Origin: Kiloniellales bacterium
GTDB lineage: Bacteria; Pseudomonadota; Alphaproteobacteria; Kiloniellales; JAKSBE01
DNA length: 64,000 nucleotides
Assembly (NCBI GenBank): GCA_030066685.1
Contig: JASJBF010000034.1
Coordinates: forward strand, 62,001 to 126,000
Direction: 5' to 3'
In this document: positions 7,661 to 46,337 of the stretch, one piece after another
Position numbering within the stretch: the first letter of the stretch is position 1
Layout: the number at the start of each line of letters is the position of its first letter
Notes under the pieces: generated by a model
What the model was told of the DNA's origin: nothing
The model's database searches: none
What the model saw: only the letters and a program-made list of their open reading frames with translations
Translations under genes and position numbers: made by a program

Positions 7661-8404
7661 TCAGGCAAGGTAGGCCCCGCCGTTGACATGAATGGTTTGT
7701 CCGGTGGTGTAGCCGGCCTCCGGGTGGCAGAGCGCAGCCACGATGTGCGCCACCTCGTCGGGTGCGCCCGGCCGGCCGAGCAGGTTCGGATGCCCGCCGT
7801 GCAAGGCCGCGCCAGCGGCAGCGCCGCGTACCGTGTCGATGCTGCCGGGCACGACGCAGTTGGCGGTGATTCCGGCGTCCGCGAACTCGGCGGCCAGAGC
7901 CCGGGTCATTCCAGTCAATCCGGCCTTGGTCGTAGCGACGTGGACACGGTCCTTCACCCCGCGATGCGCCGAGAGGCCGCCGATCATAACGATCCGCCCC
8001 CAGCCGGCCGACGCCATGTGGGGGACGGCCGCCTGGGTGCAGAGAAAGGGCGCGTCCAGGTTGACGGCGAGCACCGCCCGCCAGTCCTCGTAAGAAGTGT
8101 CACCCAGCGAGGTGTTGCGCCGCATCGCAGCGTTGTTCACCAGGATGTGCAGGCCGCCGAACTCCTGGACCGCAGCCTCGATCAGGGCACGGGCGCCCGC
8201 CGGTTCGCTGAGATCACCGATGTGGGCCGCGGCGCGTCCGCCCTCCGCCGCCACCAGGGCCGCGGTCTCGTCGGCGCCTGCCCGGTTCTCCTTGGCGTGG
8301 GTCACGACGGCGGCGCCGAGCCGGGCGAGCTTTAGGCAGATCTGGCGCCCGATGTTCATGGCGGAGCCGGTCACGATCGCGACGCGCCCCTCGAGTTCCT
8401 TCAT
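7661..8404 (-). CDS. SDR family NAD(P)-dependent oxidoreductase
   Basis: A classical short-chain dehydrogenase/reductase of 247 residues. It shows the N-terminal cofactor motif VTGSAMNIGRQI (a TGxxxxxG variant), the NNA segment LVNNAAMRR, and a C-terminal GAYTTGQTIHVNGG-like pattern. The usual catalytic serine and Y-x-x-x-K positions read IGGLSAHRG and VHVATTKAGL. The tyrosine of Y-x-x-x-K is therefore replaced by valine or histidine, which is unusual and could mean altered activity. It sits 24 bp downstream of tctA, so it is probably part of the same transcript. The substrate is probably a hydroxy acid or its CoA ester. Confidence 0.88.
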   Translation of the reverse strand: MKELEGRVAIVTGSAMNIGRQICLKLARLGAAVVTHAKENRAGADETAALVAAEGGRAAAHIGDLSEPAGARALIEAAVQEFGGLHILVNNAAMRRNTSLGDTSYEDWRAVLAVNLDAPFLCTQAAVPHMASAGWGRIVMIGGLSAHRGVKDRVHVATTKAGLTGMTRALAAEFADAGITANCVVPGSIDTVRGAAAGAALHGGHPNLLGRPGAPDEVAHIVAALCHPEAGYTTGQTIHVNGGAYLA

Positions 8405-34436: not shown

Positions 34437-34586
34437 CGGCGTCGGCATACCCCAAAAAAGCAGCGGGAGCCTTGGAGCCGAAAGTCATCGCGCCCTCAAT
34501 AATGGGGACGCAAGGGAACGGTGTTTGCTCGCGACATTTGGAGGGTTCTAAGCTTGTTCCAGCGGAAAACCAACGGGAGGCCCGTC

Positions 34587-35027
34587 ATGAAGATCAGAAC
34601 TCTAATTCCGGCGGTTGGCCTGGTGCTTGCTGTTGCACTCAGCGCCGGCCTGGTTGCCGTCGCCGGCACGCAAGAAAAGATGAAGGTCGCTTATCATCTA
34701 TCGGAAGAAGGCAAGGTTGGCTTCGTCCTCAACAACATTCGCAACCATCTCAAGGGTGTGGGAGGCCCCGCGAACGTGGACATCGTCCTCGTCGTGCACG
34801 GCCCGGCGCTCAAGGCCTTCCACGACATTCAGGCCGAATCAACCGTCCTGGAGCGAATGCAATCTCTGCTGAAGGAAGGGGTCTCTTTCAACGCCTGCGG
34901 CAATACGATGCGCGCGCAGGGCGTTGAAACCAAAGATTTGCTGCCCGGCTTCGTCCGCGTCGACCAAGGTGGCGTCGTTCGCCTCGCCGAGCTGCAGTCG
35001 GAAGGTTATGTTTACCTTCGGCCGTGA
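34587..35027 (+). CDS. Exported DsrE-like protein
   Basis: A 146-residue DsrE/DsrF-fold protein with a signal peptide (LIPAVGLVLAVALSAGLVAVAG) and the conserved cysteine in FNACGNTMRAQG. The ATG at 34587 has CGGGAGG six bases upstream, so the longer frame from 34521 is rejected. It resembles the exported protein at 26876-27337 in layout and in the CGNT box, but the two differ over most of their length. It is the last gene before the right end of the island. Confidence 0.86.
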   Translation: MKIRTLIPAVGLVLAVALSAGLVAVAGTQEKMKVAYHLSEEGKVGFVLNNIRNHLKGVGGPANVDIVLVVHGPALKAFHDIQAESTVLERMQSLLKEGVSFNACGNTMRAQGVETKDLLPGFVRVDQGGVVRLAELQSEGYVYLRP

Positions 35028-41639: not shown

Positions 41640-41963
41640 ATGAAGGCATCATCAAATCTGCGCACGGTGCTGCTGACCGCGTTCTTGCAGGGCGGCGCCA
41701 TCGTGACCATCCTGATCTGGACCGCATTGTCGTTCGTGCCCCTCGTCGCGCTCGTTTATGGCAGCCTGACGGTCTCGGAGATAATCCTGAATGTCATCTT
41801 TGCCTGCACCGGCGTGCTGGGCGTGGGATCGCTCTATGCCCTGTGGCTCTTGCTTGCGTCGCCCGAGGCCCGGGTGAGGCTCGCTCCGGACAGCCGCAAT
41901 GTGCTTCATTGGCTGGGCGTCTTCGCTGCTGGGTGGATCCTGCTCTTCACGCTCCTTGGCTGA
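41640..41963 (+). CDS. Small membrane protein of unknown function (107 aa)
   Basis: From the ATG at 41640 the product has three hydrophobic helices (LLTAFLQGGAIVTILIWTALSFVPLVALVYG, ILNVIFACTGVLGVGSLYALWLLL and WLGVFAAGWILLFTLLG). The frame runs back to 41583, but the earlier ATG gives no additional family-like sequence. I do not recognise it. It is downstream of the EF-hand gene on the same strand. Confidence 0.6.
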   Translation: MKASSNLRTVLLTAFLQGGAIVTILIWTALSFVPLVALVYGSLTVSEIILNVIFACTGVLGVGSLYALWLLLASPEARVRLAPDSRNVLHWLGVFAAGWILLFTLLG

Positions 41964-42191
41964 CGTCGGGACGAGGTGGCGGTCGCCCCATCTCCATCAT
42001 TCGCTAGGTCGTCAGCCATGCGCGCGCGTGGCAGCGGCGACGTAATCGATGATCAGCTTCACGCCGGCACTCGCTCGTAGCAAAGCGGACCATCCGATCC
42101 CGGCTGGGACGTGCCCCGGACCGGTTCTCACCCTCGTGACCGCAGGTCGCGGGGCATTGCCTAGGCGCCGTTTGGAACATATAGTGAACAA

Positions 42192-43427
42192 ATGGCGCGG
42201 CTCGATTTGAAGCAGAAGCTCGCGATTCTCAGCGACGCGGCAAAGTACGATGCCTCCTGCGCGTCGTCAGGTGGCGCCAAGCGCGACAGTCGCGACGGCA
42301 AGGGGCTTGGGTCGAACGAAGGCTCGGGCATCTGTCATGCCTACGCGCCGGACGGACGCTGCATCTCTCTGCTCAAGATCCTGATGACGAACTTCTGCAT
42401 CTACGACTGCGCCTACTGCGTGAACCGCGTTTCGTCCAACGTGCCGCGGGCGCGCTTCTCCATAGACGAAGTCGTGCGGCTGACCATCGAGTTCTATCGG
42501 CGCAACTACATCGAGGGGCTGTTTCTGTCCTCCGGCATCATAAGGTCCCCCGATGCGACCATGTCCGATATGGTTCGCATCGCCAAACGCCTGCGGGAAG
42601 ACGAGGGCTTTCGCGGATACATTCACCTCAAGACGATCCCCGACGCCGGCCCGGAGCTGATCGAGGAGGCGGGCCTCCATGCCGATCGCCTCTCGATCAA
42701 CGTCGAGCTGCCGACCGACCGGAGCGTCAACTCCTACGCGCCCGAGAAGAACCCCGAGACGATCCGGGCGACGATGGCCGACGTGCGGCTGCGCAGGGAA
42801 ATGGCCAAGGACCGCTCCCACAGGGGTCGACGCGGGAAGCGCTTCGCGCCTGCAGGCCAGTCTACCCAGGTGATCATCGGTGCGGATGGGTCCAGCGATG
42901 CGACCATTCTGGGCACCTCCACCCGGCTCTATGCGAGCTACAGGCTCAGGCGAGTCTACTACTCCGCCTTTTCTCCCATTCCGGACGCGTCGGAGAAGCT
43001 GCCGCTCATCAGGCCGCCGCTGCTGAGGGAGCACCGGCTTTATCAGGCCGACTGGCTGCTGCGGTTCTACGGCTTCGACCTCAGCGAAATCACCGCCGCC
43101 ACGGTGGACGGCAACCTCGATCTCGACATCGACCCGAAGCTCGCTTGGGCGCTCGCTCACCGCGGCCGATTTCCGATCGACGTGAACGTCGCGGAGCGGG
43201 AGATGCTTCTGCGCATCCCCGGCTTTGGGGTGAAAACCGTGAATCGGATTCTCTCGACCCGCCGACATCGCAGGGTGAGCTACCGGGATTTGAGGAACAT
43301 GGGCGCAAGCCTGAAGAAAGCGAAGCCTTTCATAGCGACGTCGGACTGGACGCCCGGCGCGCTGATCGACAGCGAGAACTTGCGCGCGCGCTTCGCGCCA
43401 CCGCCGGAGCAACTGGGCCTGTTGTGA
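42192..43427 (+). CDS. Putative DNA modification/repair radical SAM protein
   Basis: A 411-residue radical SAM enzyme of the type described as putative DNA modification/repair protein. The 4Fe-4S cluster motif is C-x3-C-x2-C (TNFCIYDCAYCVNR, about residues 65-78). The C-terminus holds a helix-hairpin-helix element (LRIPGFGVKTVNRIL) typical of DNA-binding proteins. It overlaps the next gene by 4 bp, so the two are made together. The family is commonly paired with the domain encoded next to it, which indicates one functional unit. The modified substrate is unknown. Confidence 0.88.
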   Translation: MARLDLKQKLAILSDAAKYDASCASSGGAKRDSRDGKGLGSNEGSGICHAYAPDGRCISLLKILMTNFCIYDCAYCVNRVSSNVPRARFSIDEVVRLTIEFYRRNYIEGLFLSSGIIRSPDATMSDMVRIAKRLREDEGFRGYIHLKTIPDAGPELIEEAGLHADRLSINVELPTDRSVNSYAPEKNPETIRATMADVRLRREMAKDRSHRGRRGKRFAPAGQSTQVIIGADGSSDATILGTSTRLYASYRLRRVYYSAFSPIPDASEKLPLIRPPLLREHRLYQADWLLRFYGFDLSEITAATVDGNLDLDIDPKLAWALAHRGRFPIDVNVAEREMLLRIPGFGVKTVNRILSTRRHRRVSYRDLRNMGASLKKAKPFIATSDWTPGALIDSENLRARFAPPPEQLGLL

Positions 43428-44887
43428 CGCTTTCCATTCGACTGCCGGCAATCGGTACGGCCGAAGCCTGGCGCAAGGCCGCGCGCGCCTGCCTGGCGCA
43501 GGGCATCCGGCCCGAGAACATTCTTTGGAGCTACGGCGAAGCGGCGCCTGATCTTTTTGCCCAGGAGACCCTCGCTCCTTCCGGCAGAGCCAGGTTCAAG
43601 GTTTCGAAATCCTTCATTGATCTCGCCGACAGCGTCGTCTGGCACAGCGACCCGGAACGCTTCGCCCGTCTCTACGCCCTGCTTTGGGAGGTGAAGGACC
43701 GCTCGGTCGTCATGGCCGACCGGGGCCATCCGGGCCTGTCGCAGCTTCGCGTGATGGAAAGGTCGGTCCGCCGCTGCCAGCACAAAATGAAGGCCTTCGT
43801 CCGGTTCCGGGAAATCGGCGCGGCGGATGCCCTGCGCCGCAGCTTTGCGGCCTGGTTCGAGCCCTCGCATCACACGGTCGAGCCGACAGCGCCCTTCTTC
43901 GCGCGGCGCTTTGCCGACATGGACTGGTGCATCGTCACGCCCGACCGGACCGCAGTCTTCGAGGATGGCGAACTGAGGTTTGATTCAGGTCGACAGAGGC
44001 CGCCGCTGCCCGAGGACGCGGCCGAAGAACTCTGGTCGACCTATTTTCGGAACATCTTCAACCCGTCGCGGCTGAAGGTGAAGGCGATGCAAAGCGAGAT
44101 GCCGAAGAAATACTGGGGCAATCTGCCCGAAGCCCGGCTGATTCCCGAACTGATCGCGCTGGCAGAAGCGCGTGCGGTGGCGATGCGGACGGCCGCGCCG
44201 ACACTGCCGCCACGGCGCGCCGTCAGGATCAAGGCGCGGCCCTCGCCCGGCGATCCCGCAATCGAGCCGGCGGACAGCTGGGACGCCTTGCGGCACTCGG
44301 CACAGTCCTGCACCCGCTGTCCACTCTACCGCCAGGCCACACAGGTCGTCATGGGGGAGGGACCGGCCGATGCGGATCTGATGTTCGTCGGCGAACAGCC
44401 GGGGGACTACGAAGATCTTGCTGGCCGGCCCTTCGTCGGTCCAGCCGGACGGCTCTTCGACGAAGCCTGCCAGGCCGCCGGCATCGAACGCGAGAGCGTG
44501 TTCGTCACGAATGCGGTGAAGCACTTCAAGTTCACGCCGCGCGGCAAGAAGCGGATACATCAGCGGCCGAGCGCGGGCGAGATCTCTCATTGCAGATGGT
44601 GGCTGGACCTGGAGCGGAAACTCGTCCGGCCCCGTCTCATCGTCGCCTTGGGCGCGACGGCGGCCGAGGCACTGACCGGGCGCGGTCAGGAAATCCTCAA
44701 GCGCCGCGGCCGGATCGAGCGGGCCGACGACGGCACGCCGGTCCTCCTCACCATCCATCCGTCTTACCTGCTTCGACTGCCCGACCGCGAATCGAAAGCT
44801 GTGGCAACGGAAAGCTTCCGACGCGATCTCTTGGCCGCAGCCGCCTATCTCCGAAGGCCATTCGCGGGGTCTGTGGCGAGCGCTTGA
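43424..44887 (+). CDS. udgX: UdgX-type uracil-DNA glycosylase fused to a radical-SAM-partner domain
   Basis: The GTG at 43424 overlaps the previous stop (GTGA). The 487-residue protein has two parts. Residues 1-270 form the domain seen as partner of the radical SAM protein (KSFIDLADSVVWHSDPERFARLY, then FFARRFADMDWCIVTPD). The rest is a UdgX domain: iron-sulfur cysteines CTRCPLYRQ, motif GEQPGDYEDLAGRPFVGPAGR, and the R-loop KKRIH. In studied UdgX proteins this R-loop histidine forms a covalent bond with the abasic sugar after uracil removal. The fusion supports capture of damaged or modified DNA. Confidence 0.9.
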   Translation: MTLSIRLPAIGTAEAWRKAARACLAQGIRPENILWSYGEAAPDLFAQETLAPSGRARFKVSKSFIDLADSVVWHSDPERFARLYALLWEVKDRSVVMADRGHPGLSQLRVMERSVRRCQHKMKAFVRFREIGAADALRRSFAAWFEPSHHTVEPTAPFFARRFADMDWCIVTPDRTAVFEDGELRFDSGRQRPPLPEDAAEELWSTYFRNIFNPSRLKVKAMQSEMPKKYWGNLPEARLIPELIALAEARAVAMRTAAPTLPPRRAVRIKARPSPGDPAIEPADSWDALRHSAQSCTRCPLYRQATQVVMGEGPADADLMFVGEQPGDYEDLAGRPFVGPAGRLFDEACQAAGIERESVFVTNAVKHFKFTPRGKKRIHQRPSAGEISHCRWWLDLERKLVRPRLIVALGATAAEALTGRGQEILKRRGRIERADDGTPVLLTIHPSYLLRLPDRESKAVATESFRRDLLAAAAYLRRPFAGSVASA

Positions 44888-45047
44888 TCGGTGCACGCCT
44901 TGGCTCCATCTCCAAGCAGGCCCCAGAGAAAAGACCTCAAGCGAACCCGCGCATCTTCGGAGGCACCTTGATGCCGCGTATCCTTCTGCAGATCGTTGAA
45001 ACTTGAAACCGTCTCGCCGTCGGGTTCGTCGGTAAAGGTGACGTGCC

Positions 45048-45833
45048 GTGCCTGAGGGTCACACCATCCACCGCGCCGCGCGGGAGCAATGCCGTCTGCT
45101 CGGCGGCCAGGTTCTCGCCGTCTCTTCGCCTCAGGGCCGCTTCACGGAAGGGGCCGCACGCCTCGACGGACGGCGCTGTCTCATCGTCGAGGCCTACGGC
45201 AAGCATCTGATCTATCGCTTTGAGGGGCAGGAAGCGCTCCACCTCCACCTTGGCCTTTTCGGTCGGATCCGGAAACGCAAGCTTCCCTTGACCGAGCCGC
45301 GCGGCGCCGTCCGGGTGCGGCTCGTAGGGACGACCCATGTGGTCGATGTCAACGGACCGAACATATGCGAGGTTCTGGACGAACAGGCTGTGGCATCACG
45401 CCTGCAACGCCTCGGACCCGACGTCTTGCGGCCGGATGCCGATCCGGAACGTGCCTTCCGTCGGATCTCCAGAAGCCGCGCATCGATTGGCCGCCTGATC
45501 CTGGATCAGTCGGTCATGGCCGGCATCGGCAACATCTACCGCACCGAGATCCTCTGGCGGCAGGCCATTCACCCCGAGACGCCCGGGCGGGCAATCGATC
45601 GCATCGCCTTCGAGCGGATCTGGAGGGACGCGGTCGAGCTGCTCGAGATCGGCGTCAGGCGAAACTCGATTGTAACGGTTGCCAACCCGCCATCCGGGCG
45701 TGGCCGGTTCCGCGAGCGCGTGAACATCTTCGGCAAACAGACCTGTCCGAAATGCAAGGGACCGATACGGCGTTTCGAGCTCGACGCGCGCCGTGCCTAC
45801 GTCTGCGAGGCCTGTCAGCCTGTGCAGACCTGA
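45048..45833 (+). CDS. nei: Fpg/Nei-family DNA glycosylase (endonuclease VIII-like)
   Basis: A 261-residue bifunctional DNA glycosylase/lyase that removes oxidised bases. The N-terminus MPEGHTIHRAA (GTG start) carries the catalytic proline and glutamate, PEGHT being the Nei-2-like form. A helix-two-turn-helix region includes GRLILDQSVMAGIGNIYRTE. The C-terminal zinc finger is C-x2-C-x16-C-x2-C (CPKCKGPIRRFELD to CEAC). It lies 160 bp after udgX and may form a repair module with it. Confidence 0.93.
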   Translation: MPEGHTIHRAAREQCRLLGGQVLAVSSPQGRFTEGAARLDGRRCLIVEAYGKHLIYRFEGQEALHLHLGLFGRIRKRKLPLTEPRGAVRVRLVGTTHVVDVNGPNICEVLDEQAVASRLQRLGPDVLRPDADPERAFRRISRSRASIGRLILDQSVMAGIGNIYRTEILWRQAIHPETPGRAIDRIAFERIWRDAVELLEIGVRRNSIVTVANPPSGRGRFRERVNIFGKQTCPKCKGPIRRFELDARRAYVCEACQPVQT

Positions 45834-45914
45834 CGATCATGATGACGTTCGTGACTTGCCGGCCGTGCGATCGGGCGGTTCCGCCGCTGGACGAAGGCCA
45901 GCGTGCCGGCCCGG

Positions 45915-46337
45915 TCAGCTCTCGTCAGCATCACGTCCAGGCTCGAGGGCTCCCTGCCGCTTTCGTCGGCATCCGCCTTGACCTCGACTCGGTCTCAGCT
46001 TGCCGCGCAGACGAAGCGACGCCGCGTTGAGCCTGTCGATGTCCTCCTGGCCGGTAAGCAGGGCGAGGCCCAGGTCCACCGCCTCGTGCAGGGTCTCTAA
46101 CGGCGTGTTCCGCCACGCAGGAGGCGGGACGACCTCGCGCCAAGGACGACCGACGGCGTTGTCCAATAGGACGCGGGCGAAGCAGTGATTTTCAGTGATC
46201 GGCCATCCATGCCGCAATGCCGCGGCCGGAAGCGCAACGTCAACGAGCGACCGCCAAGCCGCTCGGAGTTCGGACTCCTCGGAGGGTTCCGTAATTTCAA
46301 ACATCGAGACTTGTTTGTCTTCGCGGCGGTCCGACAT
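45915..46337 (-). CDS. Small protein with RHGWPITEDHCF-type motif
   Basis: A soluble protein of about 140 residues. The central stretch RHGWPITENHCFARVLLDNAVG and the following WREVVPPPAWRNTPLETLHEAV resemble a family of short proteins often labelled GCN5-related in databases, although the acetyl-CoA loop of that fold is absent. The function is unknown. The C-terminus is arginine-rich and looks less typical. Starts at 46349, 46337 or 46304 are possible; no clear ribosome-binding site decides between them. Confidence 0.6.
   Translation of the reverse strand: MSDRREDKQVSMFEITEPSEESELRAAWRSLVDVALPAAALRHGWPITENHCFARVLLDNAVGRPWREVVPPPAWRNTPLETLHEAVDLGLALLTGQEDIDRLNAASLRLRGKLRPSRGQGGCRRKRQGALEPGRDADES

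Follow-up and report, generated by a model that had tools for sequence, protein, structure and literature searches.

A predicted LexA-controlled operon of a radical SAM protein and a DUF4130-UdgX fusion in a Kiloniellales bacterium

Many bacteria appear to switch on a two-gene emergency repair operon upon DNA damage. The pairing of a radical SAM gene with a DUF4130 gene has been published (PMC3765255), and the accessible part of that paper terms the partners of DUF4130 SplB-like. SOS control is reported in the accessible text of two further papers, for CAC3343-CAC3344 (PMC3828012) and for the COG1573-COG4277 operon, the latter described as a 'base excision repair' operon of Bacteroidetes, Verrucomicrobia, and Alphaproteobacteria (PMC8565304). 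Both the gene pair and its SOS control are thus already in print. The physiological role of UdgX is described as largely unknown in the available part of PMC10359453, which presents UdgX as exploited in genome-wide methods; it also features in base-editor papers.

We analyzed a 64,000-nucleotide stretch of a Kiloniellales contig (the window). The features of the locus are listed below, with positions counted from the first letter of the window.

42157..42185, + strand: predicted sigma-70 type promoter, TTGCCT-17-TATAGT (1 found; shuffling the region gives an expectation of 0.4)
42175..42189, no strand assigned: alphaproteobacterial LexA (SOS) box, GAAC-ATATAGT-GAAC, 2 bp 5' of the start codon
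42192..43427, + strand: gene 1, radical SAM protein with a C-terminal helix-hairpin-helix (TIGR03916, rSAM_link_UDG), 411 aa
42258..42362, + strand: codons of the extra cysteines C23, C48, and C57, 5' of the SAM cluster (from the alignment)
42396..42419, + strand: CX3CX2C radical SAM cluster motif (C69, C73, C76), invariant in 51 of 51 aligned rows
43128..43256, + strand: helix-hairpin-helix segment (match to HHH_5 at E 0.00076, short of that family's cut-off)
43424..44887, + strand: gene 2, opening at GTG, encoding a 487-aa fusion of DUF4130 and UdgX
43454..44134, + strand: DUF4130 / TIGR03915 domain (profile matches)
44138..44833, + strand: UdgX domain (TIGR03914), uracil-excision and DNA cross-linking site predicted to be intact (profile, alignment, and fold)
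44390..44404, + strand: UdgX motif A, GEQPG (protein 2 residues 323-327)
44546..44560, + strand: UdgX R-loop, KKRIH (protein 2 residues 375-379)
44756..44776, + strand: UdgX motif B, HPSYLLR (from the alignment)
45048-45833, + strand: gene 3, Fpg/Nei-type gene, 261 aa

The first-pass annotation had described a radical SAM/helix-hairpin-helix gene overlapping a two-domain UdgX gene, with a Nei-type gene 3' of the pair, and the open reading frames and family matches agree with this layout, the HHH_5 match lying under its cut-off. The middle frame opens mechanically at TTG 43145, but the conserved protein begins at GTG 43424, so that the two genes likely overlap by 4 nt (GTGA). The identical 4-nt overlap was found in 58 of 79 related loci. 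The order of the pair and the fusion match those in 71 of the 78 related loci that were uncut, and all three TIGR models scored far over their cut-offs. The gene layout, the family matches, and the motifs are not due to chance. The window operon is no different in kind from the TIGR03916/TIGR03915/TIGR03914 set (rSAM_link_UDG, SAM_7_link_chp, and UDG_fam_dom).

In the profile search, the gene 1 protein matched TIGR03916 with 567.7 bits (cut-off 343.5), and Radical_SAM was also matched. We take COG4277 to be this radical SAM/helix-hairpin-helix protein. The window operon is likewise a two-gene operon that includes a UDG and is predicted to be under LexA control, as is the COG4277-COG1573 operon; the available text of PMC8565304 speaks of a general UDG, whereas the UDG of the window appears from its residues to be of the covalent UdgX type and is fused to DUF4130. 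Three cysteines upstream of the SAM cluster (C23, C48, and C57) were invariant in 51 of 51 aligned rows and in 10 of 10 rows of alignment A1, and they are a candidate N-terminal auxiliary Fe-S site. The structure model of the protein (m5a07dbc92f48, pLDDT 86) showed a radical SAM barrel; the pLDDT of residues 23-45 was below 50, so that the model does not speak to the geometry of the candidate site. In the fold search, HydE, lipoyl synthase, biotin synthase, and their kin were the best among the matches listed; that a fold such as that of spore photoproduct lyase is missing from such a list carries no weight.

Spore photoproduct lyase (SplB), also a radical SAM protein, has an established role in DNA repair, while the corresponding role of the window protein is predicted. 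The window protein differs in its helix-hairpin-helix tail and its extra N-terminal cysteines. It matched no SPL family up to E 5 in NCBIfam or Pfam, libraries that contain an SPL model, and on these family matches the reading as a spore photoproduct lyase was rejected. To our knowledge, no activity has been described for this radical SAM protein or for DUF4130. A Streptomyces 'radical SAM protein' of the LexA regulon (vnz_31145) was left out of the evidence, as its family was not assigned.

The gene 2 protein matched TIGR03915 with 201-204 bits (cut-off 112.25) and Pfam DUF4130 with 127 bits (cut-off 27). Among 299 sampled genomes of the phylum, TIGR03916 was over the cut-off in 72, and all 72 also carried TIGR03915; three genomes carried DUF4130 over the cut-off without the radical SAM gene. 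The same held in the class, where TIGR03916 was over the cut-off in 11 of 192 genomes and TIGR03915 accompanied it in 11 of 11. The DUF4130 gene lay downstream of the radical SAM gene in 79 of 80 related loci, and the 80th ends at a contig edge. The obligate partners are the radical SAM protein and DUF4130, a partner overlooked by the first-pass annotation. A profile search of solved structures for the DUF4130 fold returned a single match, to a ribosomal protein (E 0.14). The fold matches of the fusion model were taken up by the UDG domain, so the DUF4130 fold was barely probed, and the inter-domain arrangement was not used owing to a pTM of 0.59.

The UdgX domain scored 327.6 bits against TIGR03914 (cut-off 189.95), and Pfam UDG was also matched. 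A solved relative is the UdgX of M. smegmatis (PDB 6ajo and 6l6s), with which it has in common the GEQPG motif, the K-x-R-I-H loop, and the HPS motif; the fold match had a Z of 29.8 and an rmsd of 1.6 over 200 residues with 46% identity. The M. smegmatis protein stands alone, in contrast to the window UdgX, which is a C-terminal domain behind DUF4130. The retention of GEQPG and KKRIH, claimed from the first inspection, was confirmed at residues 323-327 and 375-379, and the residues through which UdgX is known to capture abasic DNA are, by alignment, retained: the final His of KKRIH aligns with H109 of M. smegmatis UdgX in 6ajo. Across the 54 UdgX-bearing aligned rows, this cross-linking His was retained in 53, E324 of motif A in 53, and Q325 in 52.

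UdgX was present in 72 of the 78 uncut loci, in frame with DUF4130 in 71, and was missing from the other 6, which keep the radical SAM-DUF4130 core. In the class, the operon lacked any UdgX in 4 of 11 genomes, and 9 of the 192 genomes had a UdgX but not the core. The gene tree requires 5 changes of the UdgX fusion, at least 3 of which are forced by well-supported branches. UdgX is thus a frequent and dispensable add-on to the radical SAM-DUF4130 pair. The proposed linkage of the radical SAM and UdgX-fusion genes held, with the DUF4130 gene downstream in 79 of the 80 loci; UdgX itself is optional.

The LexA box reads GTTCN7GTTC on the opposite strand, a perfect match to the published Caulobacter motif given in the accessible part of PMC12700426, and the predicted -10 hexamer sits within it. 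In the same genome, this motif is also present in the recA and lexA stretches. For the span from -150 to +20 around the radical SAM start, an exact box was found in 76 of the 80 related loci and in 27 of 5461 control stretches (Fisher p about 7e-143, a value inflated by the kinship of the loci). Three of the 4 loci without an exact box have a one-mismatch form. Of ten class loci, nine carried the exact box and one did not. By its promoter motif, the operon is predicted to bind LexA and to belong to the alphaproteobacterial SOS regulon.

The imuA-imuB-dnaE2 cassette, the SOS mutasome, carries the same type of LexA box and adjoined the module in 11 of the 80 loci, in two arrangements. It was divergent in four loci (L055, L081, L090, and L098), and same-strand mutasome genes enclosed the module in seven (L079, L080, L093, L094, L097, L099, and L101). 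Mutasome genes also lay beside the module in G125, one of the 11 class stretches. The neighboring polymerase scored 1558.6 bits to 'error-prone DNA polymerase'; the module, in contrast, has no polymerase of its own. No mutasome gene was found within the stretch examined in 69 of the 80 loci or in the 64 kb of the window. All-against-all clustering of 3867 ORFs from the 80 loci was used to list the neighbor families present in at least 6 loci; besides the module genes and antisense frames, each recurred in at most 13 loci. The ten recurrent families looked up in Pfam included ImuB (IMS domain), an ImuA-like protein, and DnaE2, with an ABC-transporter ATPase (13 loci), ketopantoate hydroxymethyltransferase, and a LysR regulator among the others. 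Five of the ten had no Pfam match; no modification gene and no defence-system family was found among them, the ABC-transporter ATPase giving weak AAA-type matches only.

The gene 3 protein matched Fapy_DNA_glyco and H2TH and fell short of the cut-off of all seven Fpg/Nei equivalog models that it matched. The first-pass annotation had counted Nei as a partner of the pair and had called for a survey of its co-location; a Nei homologue adjoined the module in 0 of 80 related loci, at a threshold of 1e-8, and in 0 of 11 class loci. Distant Fpg/Nei paralogues mostly match at E 1e-10 to 1e-12, and thus this threshold should catch many of them, not all. Close Nei orthologues occur in two genomes (G196 and G201), both of which lack the radical SAM-DUF4130 pair. 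Nei was therefore rejected as a third component, and the downstream gene is an independent repair gene and a neighbor only.

The LexA box over the promoter, kept in the related loci, together with the mutasome neighbors, makes an SOS-induced repair or damage-tolerance operon of two genes the most likely reading, rather than a base-marking system, and we give this reading as a whole a probability of roughly 70%. By this reading, LexA bound at 42175-42189 would keep the promoter shut until RecA is activated by DNA damage, as the conserved box suggests, and both proteins would then be produced together from the overlapping reading frames. The radical SAM/helix-hairpin-helix protein and DUF4130, which strictly co-occur, would form the working core, probably as a physical complex, and the core may act on damaged DNA via 5'-deoxyadenosyl-radical chemistry. 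It would share the response, and in some genomes the gene cluster, with the ImuA-ImuB-DnaE2 translesion polymerase, with which it might act jointly. Going by the residues of M. smegmatis UdgX, the UdgX domain would excise uracil and stay bonded to the abasic site through the R-loop His; once bonded, it could cap the site against strand cleavage and hold the core there. No damage phenotype for the operon genes was found in the literature searched. A more specific form, which we regard as speculative and on balance unlikely, is that the radical SAM protein, with a second Fe-S site at C23, C48, and C57, and DUF4130 make up a new type of enzyme for radical DNA repair, able to convert or reverse lesions ahead of ImuB-DnaE2, with UdgX as a built-in suicide anchor by which SOS cells would cap deaminated or abasic sites covalently and so let the core act before strand breaks arise. 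If true, the suicide-anchor reading would give UdgX a physiological role.

The core without UdgX and UdgX without the core both occur, and linkage therefore does not establish a shared reaction. It is possible, though doubtful, that one promoter serves two functions, with the core handling one lesion class and a UdgX fused by chance handling uracil separately. The repeated changes of the fusion on the tree, the core-only operons, and the UdgX genes apart from the core would fit this, whereas the presence of UdgX in nearly all uncut loci, mostly within the DUF4130 frame, speaks against it, and the near-universal retention of its active site suggests a lasting benefit of tethering. We consider it rather unlikely that the operon is a mutagenesis helper, whose enzymes create or stabilize template sites, abasic or altered, for ImuB and DnaE2 to copy, with mutation or bypass rather than restoration as the purpose. 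The conserved SOS box, the adjoining error-prone cassettes, and the label 'predicted mutagenesis-related enzyme', given to DUF4130 from gene context in the accessible text of PMC3765255, are in line with such a role; however, most loci have no mutasome neighbor, and a UdgX bonded at an abasic site would be expected to impede copying. The present data do not separate bypass from repair.

A DNA base modification system, in which the radical SAM protein marks bases, UdgX traps them, and Nei removes them, had been proposed from the first inspection. Radical SAM chemistry could alter bases, and the NCBIfam name leaves 'modification/repair' open, but we found no evidence for marking and judge this very unlikely: SOS-type control fits an inducible damage job rather than constitutive marking, Nei is unlinked and UdgX optional, no modification gene recurs among the neighbors looked up, and the LexA box and the mutasome point to damage-induced repair or tolerance. 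Least probable, and very unlikely, is an anti-phage defence against phages with uracil or modified bases. The module is sporadic, with TIGR03916 over the cut-off in the window's genome only among 38 genomes (it and 37 relatives), and is present on 158 plasmid records, as a defence system might be; against this stand the SOS box, the lack of a defence family among the recurrent neighbors, and PADLOC, none of whose families was matched by the three proteins.

With UdgX fused, its active site apparently intact, and the operon predicted to be LexA-controlled, the role of UdgX becomes directly testable in a laboratory alphaproteobacterium. DUF4130, for which we found no solved relative, is named as the partner to be worked out beside the uncharacterized radical SAM enzyme.

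The two module proteins had no match in PHROG. The phage collection gave 10 matching records, two from Acinetobacter and eight unannotated human-faecal scaffolds. In the one Acinetobacter record inspected, the neighbors of the module include glyQ and glyS, genes of chromosomal type. A phage or defence origin was rejected. Viral contigs contributed the loci L018 and L104.

The three genes proposed in the first-pass annotation were located as open reading frames (ORFs) in the window, together with a predicted LexA box (the SOS-repressor site, GTTCN7GTTC).

42175-42189, LexA box GAAC-ATATAGT-GAAC, 2 bp before the ATG of gene 1
42192-43427, + strand, gene 1, radical SAM/helix-hairpin-helix protein (TIGR03916)
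43424-44887, + strand, gene 2, DUF4130-UdgX fusion
45048-45833, + strand, gene 3, Fpg/Nei N-terminal and H2TH domains

In a profile search, gene 2 matched TIGR03915 (DUF4130) and TIGR03914 ("UdgX family uracil-DNA binding protein"). Its mechanical ORF begins at TTG 43145; the likely start is GTG 43424, where this codon and the stop codon of gene 1 overlap as GTGA; the product then has 487 aa. Gene 3 matched seven Fpg/Nei models, in every case with a score under the cut-off.

Related loci came from a scan of genome contigs with a radical SAM alignment of 10 rows (A1); of the 592 confirmed relatives, the best 80 were retained. Nearly all of these are Alphaproteobacteria by title, so that the set is biased to close kin. 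A DUF4130 gene was found downstream of the radical SAM gene in 79 of the 80 loci, the other (L094) ending with its contig. With ATG, GTG, TTG, and CTG accepted as start codons, the two genes overlap by 4 nt at the first usable start in 58 of these 79 loci and by 1 nt in five. A gap of 336 to 1022 bp separates them in L056, L069, L085, L087, L091, and L095. UdgX was present in 72 of the 80 loci (in the DUF4130 reading frame in 71 and in another frame in L095) and absent from six (L044, L049, L050, L059, L076, and L082), while L094 and L096 are cut by contig ends. Searching 14 named genomes with the UdgX model gave six over the cut-off, each at the fused gene; nothing over the cut-off was found genome-wide for the six core-only loci, or in the genome of L096, whose downstream gene runs off its contig. 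The fused UdgX of Acetobacter nitrogenifigens (L042, 6930-8360) falls under the cut-off, with degenerate TDQPG and GRRIP segments after a conserved DUF4130.

Co-occurrence was counted in two overlapping samples, 192 genomes of Alphaproteobacteria and 299 of Pseudomonadota. In the class sample, TIGR03916, TIGR03915, and TIGR03914 scored over the cut-off in 11, 12, and 17 genomes, respectively. DUF4130 was present in all 11 genomes having the radical SAM gene, and in the twelfth DUF4130 genome (G152) the radical SAM gene is reduced to a C-terminal remnant. In the broken module of that genome (L134, 6816-7999), all of the radical SAM gene but its C-terminal third is missing, and an open DUF4130 gene follows. 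UdgX exceeded the cut-off in eight of the 11 radical SAM genomes (fused in seven, elsewhere in G026) and in nine class genomes without the radical SAM gene. In the phylum sample, TIGR03916 was over the cut-off in 72 of 299 genomes, and TIGR03915 was present in all 72; three genomes of one genus (G398, G408, and G455) had TIGR03915 but not TIGR03916 over the cut-off. A tree built quickly from 94 radical SAM rows (78 labeled as fused, including L042 and L095, 12 as lacking the fusion, and four left uncounted) required five changes of UdgX fusion, at least three of them forced by well-supported branches, where support is SH-aLRT only and some branches are long. From these counts and the tree, radical SAM and DUF4130 form the core of the module, and UdgX is a common, clustered, and dispensable extension.

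It had been suggested that the pair, followed by a Nei-type gene, belongs to a system that marks, traps, and removes special bases. The Nei of the window had no match in any of the 80 loci (E 1e-8; flanks of about 6 kb unless a contig ended sooner), nor round any of the 11 class members, for each of which about 12 to 16 kb was searched (E 1e-5). Close orthologues (72-74% identity) occur in G201 and G196, both genomes without the radical SAM gene, and neither module gene lies near the Nei gene of G201. Gene 3 is thus a neighbor and not a component of the module. The scheme of marking, trapping, and removal with Nei is not supported.

The UdgX reading held well. The UdgX domain aligned with Mycobacterium smegmatis UdgX at E 8.7e-51 and resembles it in fold (Z 29.8, rmsd 1.6, 200 aligned, 46% identity). 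Alignment A2 has 61 rows, one from the window and the others from 60 of the 79 loci in which a downstream gene is present. The UdgX columns hold letters in 54 of these rows, and 53 of the 54 keep the motif A Glu, R-loop His, and motif B Arg, as well as cysteines C296, C299, and C390; L042 is the exception. The phage family-A DNA polymerase in PDB 9qhs also contains a segment similar to the UdgX/UDG domain in both sequence and fold. For DUF4130, R127, F128, P147, F159, R162, I170, W204, Y207, R216, W231, and E236 were invariant in 37 rows, and a search for a relative with a solved structure found none. In the radical SAM protein, the CX3CX2C cysteines (C69, C73, and C76) and a further three (C23, C48, and C57; window 42258-42362) were invariant in all 51 rows of A3 (the window, 49 of the best-80 loci, and L018) and kept in all 10 rows of A1, including divergent gut and Acinetobacter copies. 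The N-terminal set suggests an auxiliary (second) Fe-S cluster, in a region where the predicted model is uncertain. The predicted barrel resembles radical SAM enzymes in general, HydE being the best match (Foldseek E 2.8e-7; Z 17.9, rmsd 2.2, 213 aligned), and the superposition identifies no reaction.

The predicted LexA box overlaps the -10 element of the sole sigma-70-type match found in 41900-46100. GTTCN7GTTC, given as the LexA box of Caulobacter in the available text of PMC12700426, also occurs upstream of the recA and lexA matches in the corresponding stretches of the window's genome. Since the whole window holds five such sites against 1.87 expected, a single match is weak alone, and conservation carries the SOS argument. 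Between positions -150 and +20 relative to the aligned start of the radical SAM gene, 76 of the 80 loci carry an exact box, usually 13 to 45 bp ahead of that start, as compared with 27 of the 5461 control stretches (170 bp each) taken from the same loci (Fisher p about 7e-143, overstated because the loci are related). Three of the remaining four have a one-mismatch form, and the fourth is from a betaproteobacterium, Acidovorax (L076). Among the 10 class loci whose radical SAM gene is intact, the window's own genome being left out, nine have the exact box (the miss being G166, L124), as do a Leisingera plasmid copy and a viral-contig copy. A further perfect site at 34545-34559, near the start of a small exported-looking ORF (34521-35027), may be chance. 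In a gut metagenomic copy (L019, about 7890-8004), CGAACAAATGTG and CAAACAAATGTTCG precede the radical SAM gene and resemble Gram-positive LexA boxes.

The gene pairing and its SOS control are already known from the accessible portions of earlier papers. SOS control was described in Bacteroidetes for an operon of two genes, COG1573-COG4277, and control of this kind of UDG system is said to have been reported in Verrucomicrobia and Alphaproteobacteria as well (PMC8565304, in part); LexA control of CAC3343-CAC3344 was predicted in Clostridium acetobutylicum (PMC3828012, excerpt), and the radical SAM gene was reported as raised in dried Acinetobacter (PMC13130816, excerpt). No activity is given in the sections available for either the radical SAM protein or DUF4130, UdgX itself is described as having a largely unknown physiological role (PMC10359453, excerpt), and our literature search found no paper holding both "UdgX" and "radical SAM". 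Our analysis adds a separation, by counts, of core, add-on, and neighbor. It also shows that the LexA box over the promoter is conserved, that linkage to the mutasome takes two arrangements, that the UdgX active site is retained, and that the radical SAM protein has extra cysteines. The operon is best read as an SOS-induced DNA repair or tolerance system with a radical SAM-DUF4130 core, which in the window and most related copies carries a covalent uracil/abasic-site capture domain (UdgX).

The SOS mutasome imuA-imuB-dnaE2 was the one recurrent functional neighbor when ORFs round the best-80 modules were clustered and recurrent families looked up, at least one of its genes occurring in 11 loci (imuB 10, imuA-like 10, dnaE2 9). 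The cassette is divergent from the module in L055, L081, L090, and L098 (Hyphomonadaceae, Methylopilaceae, and Nitrobacteraceae), and L090 and L098 each have just one exact LexA box in the stretch, lying between cassette and module. In L079, L097, L099, and L101, imuA and then imuB precede the radical SAM gene on one strand, with the fusion gene and then dnaE2 after it. The stretches of L093 and L094 stop at contig ends and have imuA and imuB upstream; in L080 only dnaE2 was seen, on the downstream side. The cassette also encloses the module in G125 (L125), the sole case among the 11 class stretches. Because the enclosing form is confined to one Sphingomonadales group on the radical SAM tree, we infer that the linkage arose at least twice, not eleven times. 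No mutasome gene was found in the examined stretches of the other 69 loci or in the 64 kb of the window. The link is probably not new, as DUF4130 is named in PMC3765255 in the legend of a figure that shows the gene neighborhoods of SRAP and ImuB-C. The linkage raises the weight of a rival reading, that the module serves mutation or bypass, which we consider unlikely.

As to how the operon reached this genome, horizontal acquisition is plausible. The window genome was the only one over the cut-off among itself and 37 relatives, two of its genus included; the nearest radical SAM proteins, among the matches listed and in the tree, are from Roseobacteraceae (about 80% identity), and 158 plasmid records carry such a protein.
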